A stretch of 64,000 nt of DNA from Metabacillus flavus (GTDB lineage: Bacteria; Bacillota; Bacilli; Bacillales; Bacillaceae). The position numbers were made by a program, and so were the translations under genes. Below the pieces are notes generated by a model. It made no database searches, was not told the origin of the DNA, and worked only from the letters and a program-made list of their open reading frames with translations. Positions 50,539 through 61,336 of the stretch are shown in pieces. The stretch covers positions 1,240,001-1,304,000 of the forward strand of contig NZ_JAGVRK010000001.1 of the NCBI RefSeq assembly GCF_018283675.1, written 5' to 3'. The stretch's first letter is position 1, and every line of letters starts with the position of its first letter.

Positions 50539-51420
50539 TCAGTAGTTCCCCTCCCCCAAAAAAGTCTCCCGAAACCGCACCGCTTTCTTCGATAAGTACC
50601 GGTCCTTCAGCCAAATCAGCGCACAGTCTGATAGAAGTTCACTATTTTTAATAGGGACAGCCTTCAGTCCGCTATTTGGAAAGGATTGGAGTGTGGACTC
50701 GGGCAGGATAGCAACCCCGACGCCTTCCCTGACAAGTGACATCAGCATCGCTGCATCAGGGCATTGGCAAACAATTTTGGGCTCTAAACCTAGCTTTTGA
50801 AATTCGTTCACTACTAACTCAAATAGCCCGATTCCGCTGACCCGGTGAAGCAGCATAAGCGGCAGCTCGGCCAGATCTGCCATATCAATGGTGCTGTTCA
50901 TTTTCGAATGTTCGGGTACGACAGCGGCGAAAGGGTCTTTGGAAAGAGGGAGGCAGTCAAAATCGTTTAAGTCTAGAGGCAAGCGGACGATAGCCAGTTC
51001 AATGCTTCGGTTTCGCACATCCTCCGCTAGCCGGTAGGAATCTCCTTCATGCAGCCGAAACGAGACGTTCGGATACTGTTCACGAAAAAAGCGAATCCGC
51101 TCTGGGATATAGGAGAAGCAAGTTTTTACACAGCCGATAGAGAGCAGTCCGGATAAGCCTTCACCTGCCTCTTTCACCTCGGATACAGCGGCTTCCATTT
51201 GGAGCAGAAGCGAGTTCGCCCGTTCGTAAAGAATGGTTCCGGCTTCGGTCAGTTCCATTTTTTTGCCGTTCCTTTCCATCAGTAAAACACCGAGTTCTTC
51301 CTCGAGCGACTTAAGCTGGTAGCTTAGCGGAGGCTGGGCCATGTGCAGTTTTTTTGCAGCACGCGTCACTTGGCCTTCTTCTGCGATAGTACAAAAATAT
51401 CGGAGCTGTTTTAGATCCAA
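50539..51420 (-). CDS. LysR-family regulator of the hpa operon
   Basis: About 293 residues: an N-terminal winged helix (LRYFCTIAEEGQVTRAAKKL and AQPPLSYQLKSLEEELG) and a periplasmic-binding-like co-inducer domain. Divergent from the hpa genes, which is the classical LysR arrangement, so it probably controls them in response to an aromatic acid. TTG start at 51420 after GGGTGAG; the ATG at 51438 has no site. Confidence 0.87.
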   Translation of the reverse strand: MDLKQLRYFCTIAEEGQVTRAAKKLHMAQPPLSYQLKSLEEELGVLLMERNGKKMELTEAGTILYERANSLLLQMEAAVSEVKEAGEGLSGLLSIGCVKTCFSYIPERIRFFREQYPNVSFRLHEGDSYRLAEDVRNRSIELAIVRLPLDLNDFDCLPLSKDPFAAVVPEHSKMNSTIDMADLAELPLMLLHRVSGIGLFELVVNEFQKLGLEPKIVCQCPDAAMLMSLVREGVGVAILPESTLQSFPNSGLKAVPIKNSELLSDCALIWLKDRYLSKKAVRFRETFLGEGNY

Positions 51421-51477
51421 ACCACTCACCCTATCCATACGTTTTTTGTATCGATACTCTATTTTTTATGTATTTTC

Positions 51478-51573: not shown

Positions 51574-52506
51574 ATGCATGTGACTGGATATGAGGAAGTA
51601 AAAAAGAGATTAAGAGGATCCATTGCCCCGATTATCACTCCGTTCCATGAAGATGGTTCGATTGATTTTCAAACCCTTGAAAAACTGATTCATTGGCATA
51701 TTGAGAGCGGAAGCCATGGTATTTCTGTGACAGGAACGACCGGCGAACCGAGTTCTTTGACAGTAGAGGAACGCGTTCAGGTGATGGAAATCGCAGCAAA
51801 GGCGGTCAACAAAAGGGTTCCTTTCGTACCGGGTACAGGGTCGGCGAATCATGAAGAAACTCTTTATTTAACTAAAAAGGCTCAGGAGCTAGGTGCAGAT
51901 GCAGCTATGGTCATCGTGCCTTATTACAATAAGCCTTCACAGCACGCTCTTTACAGACATTTTAAAGTGGTGGCTGAATCTGTAGAAATACCAATCATCA
52001 TCTACAATATTCCGGGCCGGACAGCGGTTAACCTGGAAGTGAAAACGATGGCCCGTCTGGCAAAGGATGTGCCGAATATTATTGGTGCAAAAGAATCCAA
52101 TAAAGATTTTGAACACATTAACCGTGTGCTTTTAGAATGCGGAAGAGATTTTCTTCTTTATTCCGGTATTGAATTGCTTTGCTATCCGATGCTTGCAATT
52201 GGCGGAGCGGGCTACATCAGTGCTACAGCGAACGTCGAGCCGAGAAAAGTCGCGGATGTTTACAACGCTTGGAACGAAGGAGATATTACCCGCGCGCTTA
52301 ATCTGCATTATGAGCTGATGCCGTTAAATGATGTTCTGTTCAAAGACACAAATCCGGCACCGCTCAAGGCTGCTCTCGGGATGATGCACAAAATCAAGCC
52401 CGTGCTCCGTATGCCGATGGATCTTCCAACAAAAGAGCTTCAGGATGAAATCAGAAATGTACTGAAAGCGTACGTAGAACTTCCCGAAGAGGCAGGAACG
52501 ATTTAA
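51574..52506 (+). CDS. DapA-family class I aldolase (probable HpaI role)
   Basis: 310 residues, dihydrodipicolinate synthase / N-acetylneuraminate lyase fold. Schiff-base Lys173 in GAKESN, upstream TGTTGEPSSLT and the Tyr in YNIPGRT. As first gene of the hpa operon it most likely performs the pyruvate-releasing aldol cleavage of 2,4-dihydroxyhept-2-enedioate, the job done in E. coli by the unrelated class II enzyme HpaI. Biosynthetic DapA is the alternative but does not fit the context. ATG at 51574 or GTG at 51580 after AAAGGAG. Confidence 0.8.
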   Translation: MHVTGYEEVKKRLRGSIAPIITPFHEDGSIDFQTLEKLIHWHIESGSHGISVTGTTGEPSSLTVEERVQVMEIAAKAVNKRVPFVPGTGSANHEETLYLTKKAQELGADAAMVIVPYYNKPSQHALYRHFKVVAESVEIPIIIYNIPGRTAVNLEVKTMARLAKDVPNIIGAKESNKDFEHINRVLLECGRDFLLYSGIELLCYPMLAIGGAGYISATANVEPRKVADVYNAWNEGDITRALNLHYELMPLNDVLFKDTNPAPLKAALGMMHKIKPVLRMPMDLPTKELQDEIRNVLKAYVELPEEAGTI

Positions 52507-52522
52507 GAAAATTGGAGGAGGC

Positions 52523-52552
52523 CATGAAAAGATATGAAGACACAATCAAGTA
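52523..52552 (+). other. Nine-codon mini-ORF before hpaE
   Basis: GGAGGAGGCC is directly followed by ATG and nine codons (MKRYEDTIK) to a TAA. The best ribosome binding site in this junction therefore serves the mini-ORF, not hpaE. Could be a leader for coupling or a sign of a mutated start. Confidence 0.4.
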
Positions 52553-52587
52553 AGTCGGCTGCAGAGCATAAACAGCTCGAGGCTATT

Positions 52588-54045
52588 ATGCAATATATTA
52601 ACGGGGAATTTCTGAATTCGGACCAGACATTTGAAAATGTAAATCCTTATACGAACAGCAGAATTAATGAAGTAGCGGAGGGACGGAAGGAAGAAATCGA
52701 TCAAGCCGTCGCTTCTGCTAAACATGCCTTTGTTCATTGGGGTTCCATGAAAATAGAGAAACGGATGAAGTTCATTGAGCGGATTGCCGCATTGATTGAT
52801 GAGGAAATTGAGGAGATTGCCTACTTAGAATCTCTTGATACCGGCCTGCCCATCAGCCAGACAAGAAAAATGACTTCCAGGGCAGCGGAGAATTTCCGGT
52901 TTTATTCACGGATGGTTCAGACGAAGCTGCATGGAGAGTCGTATGCGGCAGACGATGAGTTTATAAACTACACCGTGTATAAACCCCTTGGTCCCATCGG
53001 TCTTATTACTCCGTGGAATGCGCCGTTTATGCTGGAAACGTGGAAGGTCGCTCCGGCGCTTGCGACTGGAAATACCGTCATTTTAAAACCTGCAGAGCTT
53101 TCACCGCTTACGGCTAATAAGCTTGCAGAGATTATTCATAAAGCAGAGCTTCCTCCAGGCGTTTTTAACGTCGTGCATGGATTTGGAGAAACAGCCGGGG
53201 CCGCGCTTGTCGCTCATCCTGATGTGAAGGCCATCTCGTTCACAGGGGAGACAAAGACCGGATCAATCATCATAAAAAATGCAGCCGACAGCCTGAAAAA
53301 AACGTCGATGGAGCTTGGCGGAAAGTCTCCTCTTATCGTTTTTGACGATGCGGACCAGGAAAGGGCGCTGGACGCGGCGGTTTGGGGGATTTTTTCTTTT
53401 AATGGAGAACGATGCACAGCGAACTCCCGCTTATTTTTGCAAAAGAACATTAAAGAATCTTTTATTGCAAAGCTGAAAGAGCGTGTCCAAAATCTTGTAG
53501 TCGGTGACCCGCTGGACACGGGAACTCAGCTTGGACCGCTTATTGAAAAAGAACATTGCAGCAAAGTACGCTATTACATTGATTTAGCGAAAGAAGAAGG
53601 CTGCACGGTTTTTCAGGGGGAAATGCCGGAGGAGCTGAAAGCAGGGAATTTCGTGCCGCCCACCTTGCTTTTGAATGCACGAAATGACATGAGAGTTTGC
53701 CAGGAAGAGATCTTCGGGCCGGTTATGTCTGTGATTGAATTTGAGACAGAGGAAGAGGCGGTTGAGCTTGCAAATGATGTTCCTTATGGCTTGGCAGGTT
53801 ACGTGTGGACAAATGATTTAAAGCGGGGACACAGGGTTGCACAGGCGGTAGAGGCGGGAATGCTCTGGGTAAATTCACAAAATGTACGCGATCTCCGCAT
53901 TCCTTTCGGAGGAATGAAAGCAAGCGGAATCGGAAGAGAAGGCGGCCATTACGCGATGCTGGAGTTTTACTGCGAGCCAAAAGTTATTCACGTCGCACTC
54001 GGCGATCATCACATTCCGCAATTCGGAAAAAGAAAGGGGAGTTAA
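52588..54045 (+). CDS. hpaE: 5-carboxymethyl-2-hydroxymuconate semialdehyde dehydrogenase
   Basis: NAD-dependent aldehyde dehydrogenase acting on the ring-cleavage product of homoprotocatechuate. 485 residues with Cys in FNGERCTANSR, Glu in MELGGKSP and the NAD-binding PWNAPFML. I prefer the ATG at 52588 (MQYINGEFL, GAGG five bases upstream), because the family starts there; the frame extends 18 codons to an ATG at 52534 that lies inside the mini-ORF. Two bases before hpaB. Confidence 0.9.
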   Translation: MQYINGEFLNSDQTFENVNPYTNSRINEVAEGRKEEIDQAVASAKHAFVHWGSMKIEKRMKFIERIAALIDEEIEEIAYLESLDTGLPISQTRKMTSRAAENFRFYSRMVQTKLHGESYAADDEFINYTVYKPLGPIGLITPWNAPFMLETWKVAPALATGNTVILKPAELSPLTANKLAEIIHKAELPPGVFNVVHGFGETAGAALVAHPDVKAISFTGETKTGSIIIKNAADSLKKTSMELGGKSPLIVFDDADQERALDAAVWGIFSFNGERCTANSRLFLQKNIKESFIAKLKERVQNLVVGDPLDTGTQLGPLIEKEHCSKVRYYIDLAKEEGCTVFQGEMPEELKAGNFVPPTLLLNARNDMRVCQEEIFGPVMSVIEFETEEEAVELANDVPYGLAGYVWTNDLKRGHRVAQAVEAGMLWVNSQNVRDLRIPFGGMKASGIGREGGHYAMLEFYCEPKVIHVALGDHHIPQFGKRKGS

Positions 54046-54047
54046 GC

Positions 54048-55523
54048 ATGCCGGCAAAAACGGGAAAACAGTATATTGAACGCGTAGACAAAGCGGAGGC
54101 GGAAATCTGGATTGACGGGGAGCAGGTTAAAGGCAAGATCTCTGAGCATCCGGCTTTTAAAGGGGTGATGAAATCACAGGCTGAGCTGTATGATATGCAG
54201 TTTGATTCTGATAAGAAGGATTACATGACGTATGTGTCGCCATCAAGCGGAGAAAGGGTTGGTACATCCTTTATGCAGCCTTCCACAAAGGAAGAGCTTG
54301 TGATGCGCCGCAGGATGATGCAGGAGTGGGCCCGATATAACGGGGGAATGATGGGGCGCTCTCCTGATTACATTAACGCTGGCCTTATGGCATATGGCGC
54401 GGCATCCGAAATGTTCGGCAGCCAGGATCCGATGTATGCGAAAAATATGCAGAATTACTATGAATACGCCCGCGAGAACGATTTATCTCTCACCCATACG
54501 CTCATTCAGCCGCAGGTCAACCGGGGAGTCAATGCGTCCCAGCTGCCGGATCAGTTTATTGCAGCGAGAATGAAAGAAAAAACGCCGGATGGAGTTGTCA
54601 TTAAAGGAGCAAGACTGCTTGCAACCCAAGGCGGAATTACGGATGAAATCATGGTTTTTCCTTCTACGCTGCTTAAGCAGACGGACGAAGAAAATCCATA
54701 TGCCTACGCATTTTGTATTCCAAACAATACGCCTGGCCTAAAATTCATTTGTCGCGAATCATTTGACTATGGAAAAACAAGCTTCGATCATCCGCTGGGC
54801 TCACGTTTTGAGGAGATGGATACAATCGTCGTTTTTGATGACGTCACCGTTCCATGGGACAGAGTCTTTTCCCTCGGTGATGTGTCGGTGTGCAATCAGG
54901 CATATAACGAGAGCAGCGCCGTCGTTCATATGACGCATCAGGTTGTAGCGAAAAATATTGCCAAAACGGAGTTCGTTCTCGGCATTTTGCAGCTCATGGC
55001 TGAGACGATCAACATTGGACAGTATCAGCATATTCAGGAAAAAATATCGGAGGTCATCATTGCTCTTGAGACGATGAAAGCATATGTTACGGCATCAGAG
55101 GCCAATGCGCAGCCCGACCGCTGGGGCACGATGACGCCGGATTTCGCTCCGCTGAACGCAGCGCGTAATTATTTTCCGAAAATTTATCCGCGGTTCACAG
55201 AAATTATGCAGCTTATGGGGGCAAGCGGGCTGATGGCCCTTCCTTCTCAAGCAGATTTCCAATCGGCAATCCGTCCTGACCTGGATAAATTCCTGCAGTC
55301 TGCAACCGGTGATGCAGAAAGCCGCGTCAAGCTGTACCGCCTTGCATGGGACGTTTGCATGAGCTCATTCGGCTCAAGGCAAATACTGTACGAGCGCTTT
55401 TTCTTTGGCGATCCGGTCAGGATGGCAAGCGCGCTCTACACCGGATACGACAAGCAGGAGCATGTGGACCGGGTAAAAGCATTCCTGGACCGGTCAGAGG
55501 AACTGATTAAAAATAATGGATGA
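54048..55523 (+). CDS. hpaB: 4-hydroxyphenylacetate 3-monooxygenase, oxygenase subunit
   Basis: FADH2-dependent hydroxylase turning 4-hydroxyphenylacetate into homoprotocatechuate. 491 residues, HpaB family throughout: YVSPSSGERVGTSFMQP, RSPDYINAG, LTHTLIQPQVNRG and DDVTVPWDRVF. It needs reduced flavin from a partner reductase (HpaC), which is not encoded in the window. Immediately follows hpaE. Confidence 0.94.
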   Translation: MPAKTGKQYIERVDKAEAEIWIDGEQVKGKISEHPAFKGVMKSQAELYDMQFDSDKKDYMTYVSPSSGERVGTSFMQPSTKEELVMRRRMMQEWARYNGGMMGRSPDYINAGLMAYGAASEMFGSQDPMYAKNMQNYYEYARENDLSLTHTLIQPQVNRGVNASQLPDQFIAARMKEKTPDGVVIKGARLLATQGGITDEIMVFPSTLLKQTDEENPYAYAFCIPNNTPGLKFICRESFDYGKTSFDHPLGSRFEEMDTIVVFDDVTVPWDRVFSLGDVSVCNQAYNESSAVVHMTHQVVAKNIAKTEFVLGILQLMAETINIGQYQHIQEKISEVIIALETMKAYVTASEANAQPDRWGTMTPDFAPLNAARNYFPKIYPRFTEIMQLMGASGLMALPSQADFQSAIRPDLDKFLQSATGDAESRVKLYRLAWDVCMSSFGSRQILYERFFFGDPVRMASALYTGYDKQEHVDRVKAFLDRSEELIKNNG

Positions 55524-55538
55524 AAAGAGGAATCGTCA

Positions 55539-56525
55539 TTGACGGACTTTAACATTATTCGAGTTGCCAGAACGGTTTTGAACGTAAAGGACTTGGACCG
55601 TTCCCGGAAGTTTTATGTGGACGCCCTTGGATTCATTGAAACAGAGCGGACAGATGAGGCCATTTACTTAAGAGGCTTGGAAGAGCATACCCACCATAGC
55701 CTTGTCCTGAAAAAATCCGAACAGTACGGTGTTCATGCCCTTGGATATAAGGTGGAATCGAATGAAGATCTGGACCGGCTTCAGGCACTTTTCCAATCAA
55801 AAGGGCTGAAAACAAAATGGCTGGAGGAAGGGACCCAGCATGCACTTGGAAGAGCCCTTCATGTTCATGATATTTCCGGCATGCCGCTCGAATTTTTCTG
55901 CAAAATGGATGCGGCTGAGAGAATGCTGCAGCGTTACGATCTTTATAAAGGAGCGAAAATACAGCGCATTGACCACGTTAACTGCAGTGTTCCGGATGTG
56001 GAAAAAGCGTATAACTTCTTTGTAAATGAACTAGGGTTTGCGTGCTCGGAATATACCGCGACCGATCAGGACCGGATTTGGGCAGCATGGCTGCACCGCA
56101 AGCAAACGGTTCATGACCAGGCTTTTATGAATGGGGAGGGACCTTGTCTCCATCACATTGGCTTTTGGCTGCCGGATCCGATGGCGATTATTCATTGCTG
56201 TGATGTCCTGGCTTCTCTTGGGTATGCTGCAATCATCGAACGCGGTCCGGGGCGCCACGGATTATCGAACGCCTTCTTCCTATACTTAAGGGATCCAGAT
56301 GGATACCGCATTGAGCTGTACAGTGGAGACTATTTAACAAGCGATCCAGATTTCAAGCCGATCCGCTGGGATTTAAACGACCCGAGACGCCAAACGTTCT
56401 GGGGAACGAAAGCACCGGACAGCTGGTTTAATGAGACGGCTCCGTTTTTGGATATCGAGACGGGGGACCCGGTTGGAACCTCTGCCCCGACACTTGAACA
56501 GAAGAAGCCAGAATTTATGATTTGA
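55539..56525 (+). CDS. hpaD: 3,4-dihydroxyphenylacetate 2,3-dioxygenase
   Basis: Extradiol ring-cleavage enzyme, 328 residues, two VOC domains, B. fuscum HPCD type. Likely iron ligands: His146 (DHVNCS), His205 or His206 (CLHHIGFW) and Glu259 (YRIELYSGDY). TTG start after AAGAGGAA. Note that this VOC type is unrelated to the E. coli HpaD. Confidence 0.93.
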   Translation: MTDFNIIRVARTVLNVKDLDRSRKFYVDALGFIETERTDEAIYLRGLEEHTHHSLVLKKSEQYGVHALGYKVESNEDLDRLQALFQSKGLKTKWLEEGTQHALGRALHVHDISGMPLEFFCKMDAAERMLQRYDLYKGAKIQRIDHVNCSVPDVEKAYNFFVNELGFACSEYTATDQDRIWAAWLHRKQTVHDQAFMNGEGPCLHHIGFWLPDPMAIIHCCDVLASLGYAAIIERGPGRHGLSNAFFLYLRDPDGYRIELYSGDYLTSDPDFKPIRWDLNDPRRQTFWGTKAPDSWFNETAPFLDIETGDPVGTSAPTLEQKKPEFMI

Positions 56526-56546
56526 TGAAAGGAGGGGAACCCGGGG

Positions 56547-57362
56547 ATGGAAACAATCTATTTATCTAAGCCCCCAGTAAAAGCAAGTGCTTCGGAAGAA
56601 TGCGTTCTTGCGTTCGGGTTTTTCGACGGCGTTCACTTTGGACACAAAGGGATTCTTGAGAAAGCAAGATTAATAGCGGCGGGAAAAAACTGTGCATTTG
56701 GAGTGATGACCTTCTATCCTCACCCCTCCGATATTTTGTTCCCTGAAAGGAAGCCGATGACCTACTTGACACCGCTCTCTGTAAAAATCAAACGGTTTGA
56801 GCAGCTTGGGGTGGATAAGCTATTTGTAATCGAGTTTAATCCGGAACTTGCCCGGCTTTCTCCAGAAGATTTTGTTGAACAATATATAAAATCTCTTCGC
56901 TGTATTCATGCGGTAGCGGGGTTTGATTATCATTACGGCTTTAAAGGGGAAGGAAGCATGAAGACCCTTCCCATCCATGGAGCCGGTTCTTTTGAGGTGA
57001 CGTCTGTAGAGAAGATTGAAAGGGAAGGGACGAAGATTAGCTCCACTGAAATTCGCCGTCTTTTAGATGCCGGAAAGGCAGAAGCAATTCCTGATTATTT
57101 GGGAGATTACTTTGAAGTGGAGGGGGTCGTGACACAATGCTCCCGCCTGGCTGATCACGAACAATTTGCATCAGTTGCACCCGATCCGGATTACCGCCTT
57201 CCGAATAAAGGAGTCTATCAAATAAAGGTGCAGATAGGCATCCGTACTTACTTGGGAATCTGTCATCAAATAACCAATCAAGTGAACCGATCCAGCCTCC
57301 TTCTTCAGGTGAAAAACTGCCCCGAAGACATCCGGAGCAAGCGATTAAAGTTAAATGGCTGA
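56547..57362 (+). CDS. RibF-like FAD synthetase without riboflavin-kinase signature
   Basis: 271 residues; housekeeping RibF is about 315. The N-terminal nucleotidyltransferase half is complete: GFFDGVHFGHKGIL (residues about 24-37), MTFYPHP, and ISSTEIRRLL (about 166-175). The C-terminal half lacks the riboflavin-kinase motif of the GRTIGFPTAN type; VTQCSRLADHEQFASVAPDP stands there instead. It should therefore adenylylate FMN to FAD but not phosphorylate riboflavin. In an operon with an FADH2-using hydroxylase this points to dedicated FAD supply. AAAGGAGGGG before the ATG. Confidence 0.82.
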   Translation: METIYLSKPPVKASASEECVLAFGFFDGVHFGHKGILEKARLIAAGKNCAFGVMTFYPHPSDILFPERKPMTYLTPLSVKIKRFEQLGVDKLFVIEFNPELARLSPEDFVEQYIKSLRCIHAVAGFDYHYGFKGEGSMKTLPIHGAGSFEVTSVEKIEREGTKISSTEIRRLLDAGKAEAIPDYLGDYFEVEGVVTQCSRLADHEQFASVAPDPDYRLPNKGVYQIKVQIGIRTYLGICHQITNQVNRSSLLLQVKNCPEDIRSKRLKLNG

Positions 57363-57476
57363 AGCATCTTTACTCAGCATCAATTGAAGCAAGAGGTTTC
57401 TATGATTATACGTCTATAGAAGAGATGGTCATGTAAGCCTCCTTGAGTGAAAATAAATAAAAAGGTGTGAGGATGA

Positions 57477-57827
57477 ATGGGATTACAAGTGAAATCATCT
57501 GATGATTTTCGGCTGAATTACGAGAGGATTGCAGGTTCACCAGAGTTCAAGCAGCTGATTGCTGCAAAGAAACGGTTTACGATCGGAACGACGCTGTTTT
57601 TCCTTTTCTTTTCCCTGCTCCTTCCTATTCTAGCCTTTTACACAGATGTATTGACCATCCAGATCGCGGGCTCCATTACGTGGGGATGGATTTTTGCTTT
57701 TAGCCAATTTGCGATGACGTGGTCCGTTTGCCATCTATATGTAAAGAAGGCGGGAGAGTTTGATGATATGGCGAAGCGAGTACTGGAAACTGAGATTAAA
57801 AGGAGCAAAGTGAAAAATGGATATTAA
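57477..57827 (+). CDS. DUF485 membrane protein
   Basis: 116 residues, two membrane segments, helical ends; the DUF485 family regularly precedes SSS-family monocarboxylate symporters (as YjcH does ActP in E. coli). Overlaps the symporter gene by 11 bases. Likely an accessory subunit. Confidence 0.87.
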   Translation: MGLQVKSSDDFRLNYERIAGSPEFKQLIAAKKRFTIGTTLFFLFFSLLLPILAFYTDVLTIQIAGSITWGWIFAFSQFAMTWSVCHLYVKKAGEFDDMAKRVLETEIKRSKVKNGY

Positions 57828-59367
57828 AGTTGTTTCTCTTTTTCTTTTTGTAGTCCTCATTACTTTATTTATTACGTTTTACGCTTCAAAGCGCACCAAT
57901 AATGCAAGCTCTTTTTATACAGCCGGAGGCGGACTGAACGGCTGGCAAAACGGGTTCGCGATTGCGGGGGATTTTATGTCTGCCTCTTCCTTTCTGGGGT
58001 TGATCGGTGCCATCTCTCTAGTTGGATATGATGGGTTTTTCCTCATGTACGGTGCGCTTGTTTCCTACTTGGTTGTCTTGCTGCTCGTTGCGGAACCTCT
58101 GAGGAACTTAGGGAAATACACGCTGGCAGATATGATCACCGAACGGTTTAATTCAAAGAAAATCAGGGGTGTCACTGCCTTTAATGCGCTAACGATCTCT
58201 GTTTTTTACATGCTTGCACAGCTTGTGGCGGCAGGAGCGCTGTTTAAACTGCTTCTTGGAATACCTTATGAACTATCCGTAGTGATTGTCGGGCTTGTCA
58301 TGCTCGTTTTTGTTATTTTCGGGGGAATGACTGCGACAAGCTGGGTGCAAATAACGAAGGCATTCCTCTTGCTTGGCGGAACACTGTTTGTTTTCATTTT
58401 GGTCATGACCAAATTTGATTTCAACATCATGCTGCTTTTCGATCAGATGAAATCGGCCACACCCCTAAATGAAGCGTATTTGAACCCGAGAGCGAAGTAC
58501 ACGAATGGGCTGGATGCAATATCCCTTACACTGGGACTCATCCTCGGTACAGCAGGCTTGCCGCATGTATTAAGCCGGTTTTTAACGGTACCTGATGCTA
58601 AGGTTGCGCGGAAATCGGTTGTGTATTCTATATGGATCATCGGCTTGTTTTATGTCATGGTCATTTTCTTAGGCTTTGCAGCTGCAAAATTTGTTGGAGC
58701 GGAAGCGATTATGGCTGCCAATCCGGCAGGAAACATGGCGGCCCCATTACTTGCAGAAATTTTGGGCGGTGATATTCTGTTTGCGGTTATTTCAGCGGTA
58801 GCGTTTGCGACTATACTTGCAGTTGTAGCAGGAATCGTTGTAACCGGGGCTACGGCATTCTCCCATGATTTTTACAATGAAATCATTAAAGATGGAACCG
58901 CAACAGAAAAGCAGCAGATGAGAATGGCAAGATTCGCTTCAATCGCGATTACGGTTCTCTCCATCATCATGGCCCTATTCGTTCAAAAAATGAATGTAGC
59001 GTTCCTTGCATCATTAGCCTTAACGGTTGCAGCCAGCTCTAATTTGCCGGTTATTCTTTTTACAGTCTATTGGAAGCGTTTTAATACAACTGGAGCGATC
59101 AGCGGTATTTTGACAGGCCTGATTTCCACTATGCTATTCGTTGCGTTAAGTCCAAATGTATGGAATCCTGTGGCCGGGGCAGCTTTGTTCACTGGTGATC
59201 CGATATTCCCGCTTACCTCTCCGGGAATCGTTTCAATTCCTCTTGGTTTCTTAGGGGCTTACGCTGGAACTATGCTTTCAAAAAGGAAAGCTGCGACGGG
59301 GAATTTTCAGGAGATCTTGGTTAAAACCAACACGGGCAGTGACGTAAAAGGGGTTACCCATCAATAA
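57817..59367 (+). CDS. Sodium:solute symporter, probable 4-hydroxyphenylacetate uptake
   Basis: 516 residues, SSS family with about thirteen membrane segments, ActP-like (TAGGGLNGWQNGFAIAGDFM, FGGMTATSWVQITKAFLL). In this operon the likely cargo is 4-hydroxyphenylacetate or a related aromatic acid, with Na+; acetate cannot be ruled out from sequence. AAAAGGAG before the ATG. Confidence 0.85.
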   Translation: MDIKVVSLFLFVVLITLFITFYASKRTNNASSFYTAGGGLNGWQNGFAIAGDFMSASSFLGLIGAISLVGYDGFFLMYGALVSYLVVLLLVAEPLRNLGKYTLADMITERFNSKKIRGVTAFNALTISVFYMLAQLVAAGALFKLLLGIPYELSVVIVGLVMLVFVIFGGMTATSWVQITKAFLLLGGTLFVFILVMTKFDFNIMLLFDQMKSATPLNEAYLNPRAKYTNGLDAISLTLGLILGTAGLPHVLSRFLTVPDAKVARKSVVYSIWIIGLFYVMVIFLGFAAAKFVGAEAIMAANPAGNMAAPLLAEILGGDILFAVISAVAFATILAVVAGIVVTGATAFSHDFYNEIIKDGTATEKQQMRMARFASIAITVLSIIMALFVQKMNVAFLASLALTVAASSNLPVILFTVYWKRFNTTGAISGILTGLISTMLFVALSPNVWNPVAGAALFTGDPIFPLTSPGIVSIPLGFLGAYAGTMLSKRKAATGNFQEILVKTNTGSDVKGVTHQ

Positions 59368-59386
59368 AACATTGGGAGGAATGGAA

Positions 59387-60166
59387 TTGAAGACAGCCCT
59401 ATTGAAAATGGCAGGAACCTCCGGGCTCAAATTGGTGCAGGTTCGGGGGGAAGAATTCGTCTACAAGGAGAAAACTTATCAAACGAATGACCTGATTCTT
59501 GAAACGCCCATATCAGGTACGGTTTATGGAACAGTACTTAACTATAAGGGCGAACTGGAGCTGCTGGGAGATGCTGTTCATGAGCCTCCCTACAAAAAAA
59601 CTCCGGCCGCACCCGTCCTATACATTAAGCCGGCGAACACAATCTCTGGCCACGGCATGCTGATTCCGCTTCCGGAAGGGGTAGAGGAATTACAGGCTGG
59701 CGCTGCTCTTGGAATTGTCATTGGCAAAAAAGCGGTCCGGATAAAGGAAGAGGAAGCCCTCGAATATGTCGCAGGATATACAGTGGTAAATGATGTGAGT
59801 ATTCCGTATTCGAGTGTATACCGGCCTCCCATTATGCAAAAGTGCAGAGATGGTTTTTGCCCGGCAGGTCCCTGGATTGCAGCTCGTGAAGATGTGGAAA
59901 ATCCGGATGCATTATCGATTCGAGTTTTTGTCAATGAAGTTCTGCAGCAGGAAACGACGACGGCGAATCTCATTCGTCCTGTTTCAAAATTGATAGCTGA
60001 TGTAACAGAATTTATGACGCTGGAAGAAGGAGACATTCTGCTGGCAGGGGTTTCTGAAAATCCTCCTCGTTTGAAAGACGGAGATACGGTCAAAATTTCC
60101 ATAGAAAGTGTAGGTTCGCTGCAGAACCGAGTGGCAAAAGAAGAGGAATGGATGGTGCAGCTATGA
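59387..60166 (+). CDS. hpaG1: HpaG1: FAH-family decarboxylase/isomerase, N-terminal-half homologue
   Basis: 259 residues, aligning with the N-terminal half of E. coli HpaG: YIKPANTISGHG, VNDVSIP, KCRDGFCPAGPW. HpaG decarboxylates and isomerises 5-oxopent-3-ene-1,2,5-tricarboxylate. I start at the TTG at 59387, six bases after GGGAGGA; the ATG at 59381 is too close. Overlaps hpaG2 as ATGA. Confidence 0.87.
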   Translation: MKTALLKMAGTSGLKLVQVRGEEFVYKEKTYQTNDLILETPISGTVYGTVLNYKGELELLGDAVHEPPYKKTPAAPVLYIKPANTISGHGMLIPLPEGVEELQAGAALGIVIGKKAVRIKEEEALEYVAGYTVVNDVSIPYSSVYRPPIMQKCRDGFCPAGPWIAAREDVENPDALSIRVFVNEVLQQETTTANLIRPVSKLIADVTEFMTLEEGDILLAGVSENPPRLKDGDTVKISIESVGSLQNRVAKEEEWMVQL

Positions 60167-60978
60167 AAAGAGCGAGGGTAGCCTATGCAGGAGCCGTTCA
60201 TGAAGCCGTGGAAACAAATGGTCAGGTAAAACTGGATGACGGACGTTTGGTTAAGGAAAATGAAGTTGTATGGCTTCCTCCAGTCAACCCCCGTACCGTA
60301 TTTGCCCTCGGACTGAATTATGCCGATCATGCGAAGGAGCTTGACTTTCAAGCGCCTGCCGAGCCGCTCATATTTTTAAAAGGGCCTAATGCATTCGTTG
60401 GCCACCGCGGCCAGACGAGACGGCCGGCAGGAGTTGAATACATGCATTATGAATGTGAGCTTGCTGTTGTAATCGGGAAAAAGGCGCGGCACGTAAAGCG
60501 TGAGGAAGCGTATCAGTATGTGAAGGGATATACGATTGCCAATGACTACGCCATTCGTGATTATCTCGAAAACTACTTCCGGCCGAATTTGCGTGTAAAA
60601 AACCGGGATGGCTGCACACCAATCGGGCCATGGCTGACGGATGCGGCAGATATTGCGGATCCTATGAATCTGGCACTCCGCACATTTGTAAACGGGAAGC
60701 TGACGCAGGAAGGAAATACAAGGGATATGGTGTTTGATATACCGGACTTGATCGAATACCTCAGCAGGTTTATGACCTTGGAAGAAAACGATATCATTCT
60801 CACGGGAACCCCGGAGGGACTCTCGGATACTGCTGCGGGGGACATCGTTGTAACAGAAATTGAAGGAATAGGAAGATTGGAAAATACGATTGTCAACGAT
60901 GAAGTATTTGGCATCCAAGATGTAAAAAAGGAGGAGCCCCATGCCGCACATCGTGGTCGAATACACAAAGAACATTAA
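60163..60978 (+). CDS. hpaG2: HpaG2: FAH-family decarboxylase/isomerase, C-terminal-half homologue
   Basis: 271 residues, aligning with the C-terminal half of E. coli HpaG: LGLNYADHAKEL, YECELAVVIGKKA with the metal-binding Glu residues, RDYLENYFRPNLR, TGTPEGLSD. With HpaG1 it makes up the function that is one polypeptide in E. coli. ATG at 60163 overlaps the hpaG1 stop. The last 38 bases overlap hpaF. Confidence 0.9.
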   Translation: MKRARVAYAGAVHEAVETNGQVKLDDGRLVKENEVVWLPPVNPRTVFALGLNYADHAKELDFQAPAEPLIFLKGPNAFVGHRGQTRRPAGVEYMHYECELAVVIGKKARHVKREEAYQYVKGYTIANDYAIRDYLENYFRPNLRVKNRDGCTPIGPWLTDAADIADPMNLALRTFVNGKLTQEGNTRDMVFDIPDLIEYLSRFMTLEENDIILTGTPEGLSDTAAGDIVVTEIEGIGRLENTIVNDEVFGIQDVKKEEPHAAHRGRIHKEH

Positions 60979-61336
60979 GGATCAGGCGGACATTCCTGAG
61001 CTTTTGAAAAAAATAAACGGCATCCTCCTATCAAGAAGCGATCTATTCCCAAAAGGCGGGATCCGTTCCAGAGCGATTGAGCTTCAAGACTATTTTATTG
61101 CAGATGGTCAAGAAGACGATGCTTTTGTTCATATCTCAATGAAGATTGGAGCCGGGCGTTCGGAAGAAGACAAAAAGGATGTTTGTGATGAGCTGTTTGA
61201 GATGGCGAAACATCATTTTCAAATGCTGTTTTCATCACGATATCTGGCCTTGTCGATGGAACTCGCAGAATTCAGTGAAGCGGGGACCTATAAGCATAAC
61301 AATATCCATGAGCGGTTTAAAAAAGCACCCCGGTAG
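60941..61336 (+). CDS. hpaF: 5-carboxymethyl-2-hydroxymuconate isomerase
   Basis: 131 residues, tautomerase superfamily, with the catalytic N-terminal Pro2 after Met removal (MPHIVVEYTKN). Isomerises CHM before decarboxylation by HpaG. AAGGAGG lies within the end of hpaG2. Last gene of the operon. Confidence 0.93.
   Translation: MPHIVVEYTKNIKDQADIPELLKKINGILLSRSDLFPKGGIRSRAIELQDYFIADGQEDDAFVHISMKIGAGRSEEDKKDVCDELFEMAKHHFQMLFSSRYLALSMELAEFSEAGTYKHNNIHERFKKAPR

Follow-up and report, generated by a model that had tools for sequence, protein, structure and literature searches.

A RibF paralogue lacking the riboflavin kinase site in a 4-hydroxyphenylacetate operon of Metabacillus flavus: a candidate pathway-linked FAD synthetase

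Introduction

Why would a catabolic operon carry its own gene for FAD synthesis? The question is raised by a locus of Metabacillus flavus, where a paralogue of the FAD synthetase (FADS) RibF is found among genes for degradation of 4-hydroxyphenylacetate. The analysis concerns a stretch of 64,000 nucleotides of genomic DNA, referred to throughout as the window, together with related loci in other genomes.

The gene and its operon

The FADS gene lies on the same strand as the hpa genes, with short spacing, between hpaD and the hpaG1, hpaG2 and hpaF genes. Genes for a DUF485 protein and a symporter separate it from hpaG1. The features of the region are as follows, with profile matches in brackets; the NCBIfam matches of the aldolase, HpaE, HpaB, HpaD and both HpaG types are all above cut-off.

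50539..51438, − strand: LysR-type regulator, divergent, conserved beside related hpa operons
51574..52506, + strand: HpaI-type aldolase of the DapA family (TIGR02313, above cut-off)
52534..54045, + strand: hpaE, 5-carboxymethyl-2-hydroxymuconate semialdehyde dehydrogenase (TIGR02299, 763 bits)
54048..55523, + strand: hpaB, FADH2-dependent 4-hydroxyphenylacetate 3-monooxygenase, the presumed consumer (TIGR02309, HpaB-1, 695 bits)
55539..56525, + strand: hpaD, 3,4-dihydroxyphenylacetate 2,3-dioxygenase (TIGR02295, 446 bits)
56547..57362, + strand: FADS paralogue lacking riboflavin kinase (RFK) motifs (FADS-type II), predicted FMN adenylyltransferase, 271 aa (Pfam, motif tables, AlphaFold, Foldseek)
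56547..57110, + strand: its FMN adenylyltransferase (FMNAT; nucleotidyltransferase) domain, approximately residues 1-188, with GFFDGVHFGH, TFYPHP, AGFDYHYG and KISSTEIR present
57111..57359, + strand: its degenerate riboflavin kinase barrel, approximately residues 189-271, with six predicted beta strands and lacking GRTIGFPTAN, the catalytic Glu and the C-terminal helices
57477..57827, + strand: DUF485 small membrane protein (PF04341)
57817..59367, + strand: SSS-family (ActP/MctC-like) solute symporter (PF00474; NF058657, 571 bits, under cut-off)
59372..60166, + strand: hpaG1, HpaG N-terminal type (TIGR02305, above cut-off)
60148..60978, + strand: hpaG2, HpaG C-terminal type (TIGR02303, above cut-off)
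60941..61336, + strand: hpaF, 5-carboxymethyl-2-hydroxymuconate isomerase, CHMI (PF02962, above the Pfam cut-off)

The FADS reading frame has an ATG start codon preceded by a strong ribosome-binding site (aaaggagggg); hpaD ends at 56525, leaving 21 bp between the two genes. A consensus promoter and terminator scan gave counts near the shuffled expectation.

Pfam FAD_syn matches residues 14-167 with 158 bits (1.6e-46), and Flavokinase reaches 12.9 bits against a cut-off of 19.6; there is also a weak match to CTP_transf_like. The models for complete bifunctional RibF score below their cut-offs (TIGR00083, 133.5 against 184.35 bits; NF004161, the PRK05627 model, 248.5 against 461), as does NF045965, the model for the monofunctional FAD synthase RibF_rel (81.8 against 200 bits). 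The same genome encodes a canonical RibF of 318 aa with GRTIGFPTAN intact (G000:C1:1880584). The window protein thus combines the features by which FADS-type II is recognized: FMNAT motifs (GVHFGH, KISSTEIR) without PTAN, a C-terminal module shortened to give 271 rather than 318 aa, and a coexisting type I enzyme.

Active-site residues and predicted fold

The FMNAT residues of C. ammoniagenes FADS (CaFADS) have been defined by mutagenesis (PMC7279473, PMC2573891). In alignment, H28, H31, P56, P58 and L98 of CaFADS correspond to H30, H33, P58, P60 and L101 of the window protein, and Y106, F128, S164 and T165 to F109, Y130, S166 and T167. Other positions differ from CaFADS in the same way as they do in canonical RibF of Bacillales: N125 is D127, R161 is K163 and F62 is Leu64, with Asp, Lys and Leu likewise found in the canonical enzymes. 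The flavin-cavity, catalytic Asp and phosphate-binding residues all agree with canonical Bacillales RibF.

The kinase half presents the opposite picture. T208, N210 and E268 are required for RFK activity in CaFADS, where single substitutions cripple it (PMC2573891), and none has a counterpart in the window protein; by comparison, Thr and Glu are present at these columns in 29/29 canonical RibF sequences and Asn in 28/29. Unrelated sequence stands in place of GRTIGFPTAN, and Leu has replaced the catalytic Glu (SVEVHIFDF to SLLLQVKNC). An ordinary second bifunctional RibF was therefore ruled out for this gene, given the lost kinase residues. That the protein is still bifunctional, with a diverged kinase, is extremely improbable: the barrel fold is kept in the model and one relative (L003) still scores 35.6 bits on Flavokinase, but both PTAN and the catalytic Glu are missing, and a single substitution of T208, N210 or E268 is enough to cripple RFK in CaFADS.

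The loss is shared by related proteins. Among 37 long RFK-less paralogues of Bacillales, the window protein included, the PTAN-type motif is found in none, and both histidines and the Asp, Lys, Ser and Arg of the FMNAT site are kept in 37/37; the mapped FMNAT residues are almost invariant across these and 16 short RFK-less paralogues. Such a consistent pattern indicates that loss of the motif in the window protein is more than chance.

An AlphaFold model of the window protein (11 sequences; mean pLDDT 89.9, pTM 0.85) has six strands in the C-terminal half. Its best Foldseek matches in the PDB are 3op1 and CaFADS (TMq 0.87-0.89), the top one being the S. pneumoniae FADS 3op1 (TMq 0.88, E 4.8e-25). 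According to the model, the kinase barrel is retained as a scaffold whose active site is gone. Its retention may matter, since the isolated N-terminal FMNAT domain of CaFADS has no activity (PMC2573891); by the same token, an intact N-terminal half is no guarantee of function. The open frame, the full set of FMNAT residues and the well-folding model ruled out a spurious annotation or a frameshifted remnant.

A nucleotidyltransferase with a changed substrate, or a non-catalytic flavin sensor or carrier for the operon, is conceivable for a member of the broad cytidylyltransferase-like superfamily (to which the weak CTP_transf_like match points) whose modelled barrel persists without kinase residues. 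We consider this very unlikely, as the flavin-cavity, catalytic and phosphate-binding residues are those of canonical Bacillales RibF.

An earlier note on this DNA had described a RibF paralogue with an intact FMNAT half and a lost kinase motif, placed directly after the dioxygenase gene of a 4-hydroxyphenylacetate operon. The Pfam matches, motif tables and alignment bear this out, as does the location 3' of hpaD. The structure prediction and RibF alignment that it called for returned a predicted FADS fold in which the FMNAT residues are intact and the kinase residues lost.

Distribution in Bacillales

In a survey of the order, 399 genomes were searched for HpaB, and FADS paralogues were then sought in 128 HpaB-positive and 80 HpaB-negative genomes. 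RFK-less copies were found in 39/128 of the former and 2/80 of the latter (Fisher p 1.6e-7), or 4/80 with two ambiguous HpaB-negative genomes counted in (p 3.3e-6); the HpaB-positive genomes sampled were those scoring highest for HpaB and the p-values ignore phylogeny, so they are indicative only. In one of the two HpaB-negative exceptions, the neighbours of the gene are hpaC and an HsaA-like group D monooxygenase; in the other, a protein with an acyl-CoA-dehydrogenase fold is encoded nearby.

Gene position is stronger evidence than co-occurrence of this kind. Among 38 long loci, which include two of a different, RFK-containing type (L115 and L133), 31 lie no more than 6 kb from an HpaB gene, and 28 have an HpaC/StyB-type flavin reductase gene on the same strand within 200 bp, mostly at 6-44 bp. 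The order hpaE-hpaB-hpaD-hpaC-FADS is a common arrangement that recurs in many families. Some long copies are located in other aromatic clusters, with L101 and L139 beside HsaA-like monooxygenases. The one-off insertion of a random gene was ruled out by the same neighbour occurring in many families. A strict need for a reductase partner was also ruled out as a general rule, with FADS present and no adjacent hpaC in the window genus and in L127-L130.

L115, L133 and L049 represent a distinct second class of RibF-like proteins of about 315 aa. They were set aside because of their RFK-like motifs (GRELGFPTIN, GRELGFPTLN and GRTLGYPTLN, respectively). In the tree, L115 and L133 group together at a distance from the rest; all three loci are without an HpaB or reductase neighbour.

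These results bear on further claims of the earlier note. It had named absence of the gene from all other hpa operons as an outcome that would refute it; the survey finds the paralogue in other hpa operons, so that refutation fails. The link that it drew to FADH2 consumption by HpaB gains support from gene context, and does so for FADH2-using monooxygenases generally, beyond 4-hydroxyphenylacetate. Its expectation that such a gene would be unusual did not hold, in that RFK-less paralogues were catalogued from sequence in 2010 (PMC2972280) and are commonly paired with monooxygenases in Bacillales, a pairing that extends to Alphaproteobacteria.

The frequent adjacency to a reductase gene raises an alternative in which the enzyme acts mainly on FMNH2 from the neighbouring reductase and hands FADH2 to the monooxygenase, forming a three-protein module. 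S. pneumoniae FADS, the top fold match, adenylylates only reduced FMN, and the B. subtilis enzyme is reported to be specific for reduced flavins (PMC5548840). Against this, no hpaC-type reductase occurs in the window or elsewhere in the genus, flavin transfer in a two-component phenol hydroxylase needs no physical contact (PMC6165268), and redox preference cannot be deduced from sequence. We regard this alternative as unlikely.

Short FMNAT-only genes and plasmids

A second form consists of the FMNAT domain alone, in reading frames of 175-226 aa (typically about 180 aa). In the tree, these short proteins are one clade (support 100/98), apart from the long form and from RibF. An HpaB gene lies within 6 kb of 9/16 short genes, and in six of these nine the distance is 36 bp or less. 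Six other short genes (L107, L108, L111, L113, L114 and L050) are located in catechol-type meta-cleavage operons with no HpaB nearby; the operon of L111 also contains amidohydrolase and RidA-like genes.

Pairing of the short form with HpaB-type monooxygenases is found in Bacillota and on annotated plasmids of Alphaproteobacteria. Plasmid relatives adjoin genes annotated as '4-hydroxyphenylacetate 3-hydroxylase N-terminal domain' or 4-nitrophenol monooxygenase, together with flavin reductases, for example in Sagittula, Priestia megaterium, Xanthobacter, Sphingobium, Agrobacterium, Bradyrhizobium, Bacillus badius, Marinibacterium and Paracoccus; weaker cases are Priestia aryabhattai and Peribacillus asahii, with a reductase nearby. 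On a plasmid of Sphingobium sp. YC-XJ3 (L144), HpaB-type, FMNAT-only and flavin reductase genes lie between IS6100 copies, which suggests that the trio is mobile as a unit. This may be the MeaXY locus.

Other arrangements were also observed. At L103 (5268-6410), HpaB and a short FMNAT gene are preceded by the gene of a 380-aa protein in which Pfam shows a flavin reductase fused to a GntR/FCD regulator, and at L104 (5107-6282) a flavin reductase reading frame of similar size (391 aa) has the same position. Such a fusion could link transcription to flavin state. On a Ligilactobacillus plasmid (L153, 4456-5295), a FAD synthetase family gene lies between the pyruvate oxidase gene spxB and a riboflavin biosynthesis cluster, which is another FAD-demanding setting.

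Presence, absence and selection

In a tree of FMNAT domains, the window protein clusters (100/99) with copies that two other families carry in operons, and it belongs to a larger group made up of 33 long paralogues (95/90). L046, L048/L119 and L099 fall outside this group, so the kinase may have been lost on more than one occasion. For the FMNAT half, the gene pairs that were compared gave dN/dS values of 0.09-0.24 wherever these could be measured, with constraint usually looser in the C-terminal half; these sequence comparisons indicate that, in relatives of the window gene, the FMNAT half is under purifying selection. Decayed paralogues were also seen, including a 90-aa remnant (L132) and fragments at G365:C23:75828-76624 and G294:C1:360300. 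The decayed copies of G216 and G294 are in or beside hpa operons.

Within the genus, the gene belongs to a block that varies between species:

56526..59371, no strand assigned: block of about 2.85 kb comprising the FADS, DUF485 and symporter genes; three sibling species have an otherwise collinear hpa operon from which exactly this block is missing

The siblings (n=3, L158-L160) have the same operon, with HpaB 90-97% identical and hpaD followed directly by hpaG1 across a clean junction. The block is a presence/absence cassette within the genus, and these near-identical operons without the FADS gene show that it is dispensable. It is missing from many other hpa operons too (L134-L137). Across orthologous hpa operons, FADS is present in many families and absent from the three siblings and from other operons.

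The reductase is also missing. There is no hpaC in the window operon (51574-61336) and no HpaC/StyB-type reductase in the whole genus, where the single PF01613 protein is of another type (L118, 7648-8256). Since relatives of the window operon carry hpaC (L120, L122-L124, L126), it was probably lost first in the genus, with the siblings then losing FADS as well. An alternative history is that FADS was gained in the window lineage, which may be the case.

The window FADS is about 53% identical to its nearest relatives, compared with about 83% for HpaB. The copy is accessory here, and as it is both short and faster-diverging than HpaB it may be drifting slowly towards loss. A stronger form of this idea is that it is a decaying RibF duplicate with no present role in the species. 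The shortened C-terminus, the rapid evolution, the siblings without the block and the degraded copies elsewhere are all in keeping with decay. We nevertheless judge it quite unlikely, given the open frame, the good ribosome-binding site and the intact FMNAT residues, together with purifying selection on the FMNAT half of related copies and an adjacency conserved over many families.

Relation to known proteins

The available text of Yruela et al. 2010 (PMC2972280) describes FADS-type II proteins with conserved FMNAT, no PTAN and a short C-terminus, occurring beside type I, and lists them in Oceanobacillus, Bacillus, Listeria, Arthrobacter and others. The window protein shares with them the FMNAT half, the shortened C-terminal module without PTAN and a type I enzyme in the same genome. 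In that text, the class is known from sequence alone, with no genomic context and no monooxygenase link given. Also listed there are proteins consisting of FMNAT alone, from Bacillus cereus, Geobacillus thermodenitrificans, Mycoplasma and others, and the short genes of about 180 aa beside HpaB belong to this type. The window gene differs from these in keeping a degenerate RFK barrel and in lying outside the short clade of the tree.

Several characterized proteins provide points of comparison. The bifunctional FADS of C. ammoniagenes (2X0K) and S. pneumoniae (3OP1) have their fold and FMNAT site in common with the window protein, which lacks their kinase active site. The plastid proteins AtRibF1 and AtRibF2 combine a bacterial-type FMNAT with a C-terminal module without PTAN, as the window protein does, and FADS activity has been measured for them without RFK activity (Sandoval et al., as reported in PMC2972280); they are nuclear-encoded plant genes, whereas the window gene is operon-borne. 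B. subtilis RibR and S. agalactiae MreA are monofunctional riboflavin kinases (PMC7017516) and likewise represent a bacterial split of the FADS activities, but with the opposite half kept. The two-component FAD monooxygenases of HpaBC type are the system of the neighbouring hpaB, and of hpaC in relatives; as reviewed in PMC6165268, they have no FADS-like third component (the terms 'FAD synth' and 'ribF' are absent).

By 2010, no monofunctional prokaryotic FMNAT had been reported, according to PMC2972280. In the open-licence papers searched, we found neither a later report of a monofunctional bacterial FMNAT nor a paper tying FADS-type II or FMNAT-only genes to two-component monooxygenase operons. 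The two classes have been known since 2010, and their link to monooxygenase operons is apparently new.

Proposed function and significance

Taken on sequence grounds, the window gene is probably a kinase-less duplicate of RibF that provides a pathway-linked supply of FAD from FMN for an FADH2-dependent monooxygenase. After duplication of RibF, the copy would have lost riboflavin kinase and would act purely as an FMN adenylyltransferase (FMN + ATP -> FAD + PPi). Because the gene is in the hpa operon, where it would be co-transcribed with its neighbours, the enzyme would be made when 4-hydroxyphenylacetate is degraded and would move the FMN/FAD pool towards FAD. A reductase would turn this FAD into FADH2 for use by HpaB, and the housekeeping RibF would continue FMN production. 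With its kinase lost, the paralogue could add FAD without drawing riboflavin into FMN or competing for riboflavin.

The repeated pairing with reductase and monooxygenase genes in two phyla suggests a built-in, on-demand cofactor supply. In engineered cells, more FAD-synthesis enzyme leads to higher output of FADH2-dependent monooxygenase pathways (PMC10958861). A more specific proposal is that many FADH2-dependent monooxygenases of aromatic catabolism belong to a three-component module of monooxygenase, flavin reductase and a kinase-less FMNAT, the last of which works on reduced FMN, forms FADH2 at its site of use and has arisen independently in two or more RibF-derived lineages (the long type II form and the short form of about 180 aa). 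This we hold to be rather doubtful.

If these proteins are active as proposed, they would provide a function for the unexplained FADS-type II and FMNAT-only paralogues. For HpaBC-type biocatalysis, the paralogues also offer a ready set of candidate genes with which the supply of FADH2 might be increased. More broadly, such activity would mean that catabolic operons are able to carry their own cofactor-finishing step.
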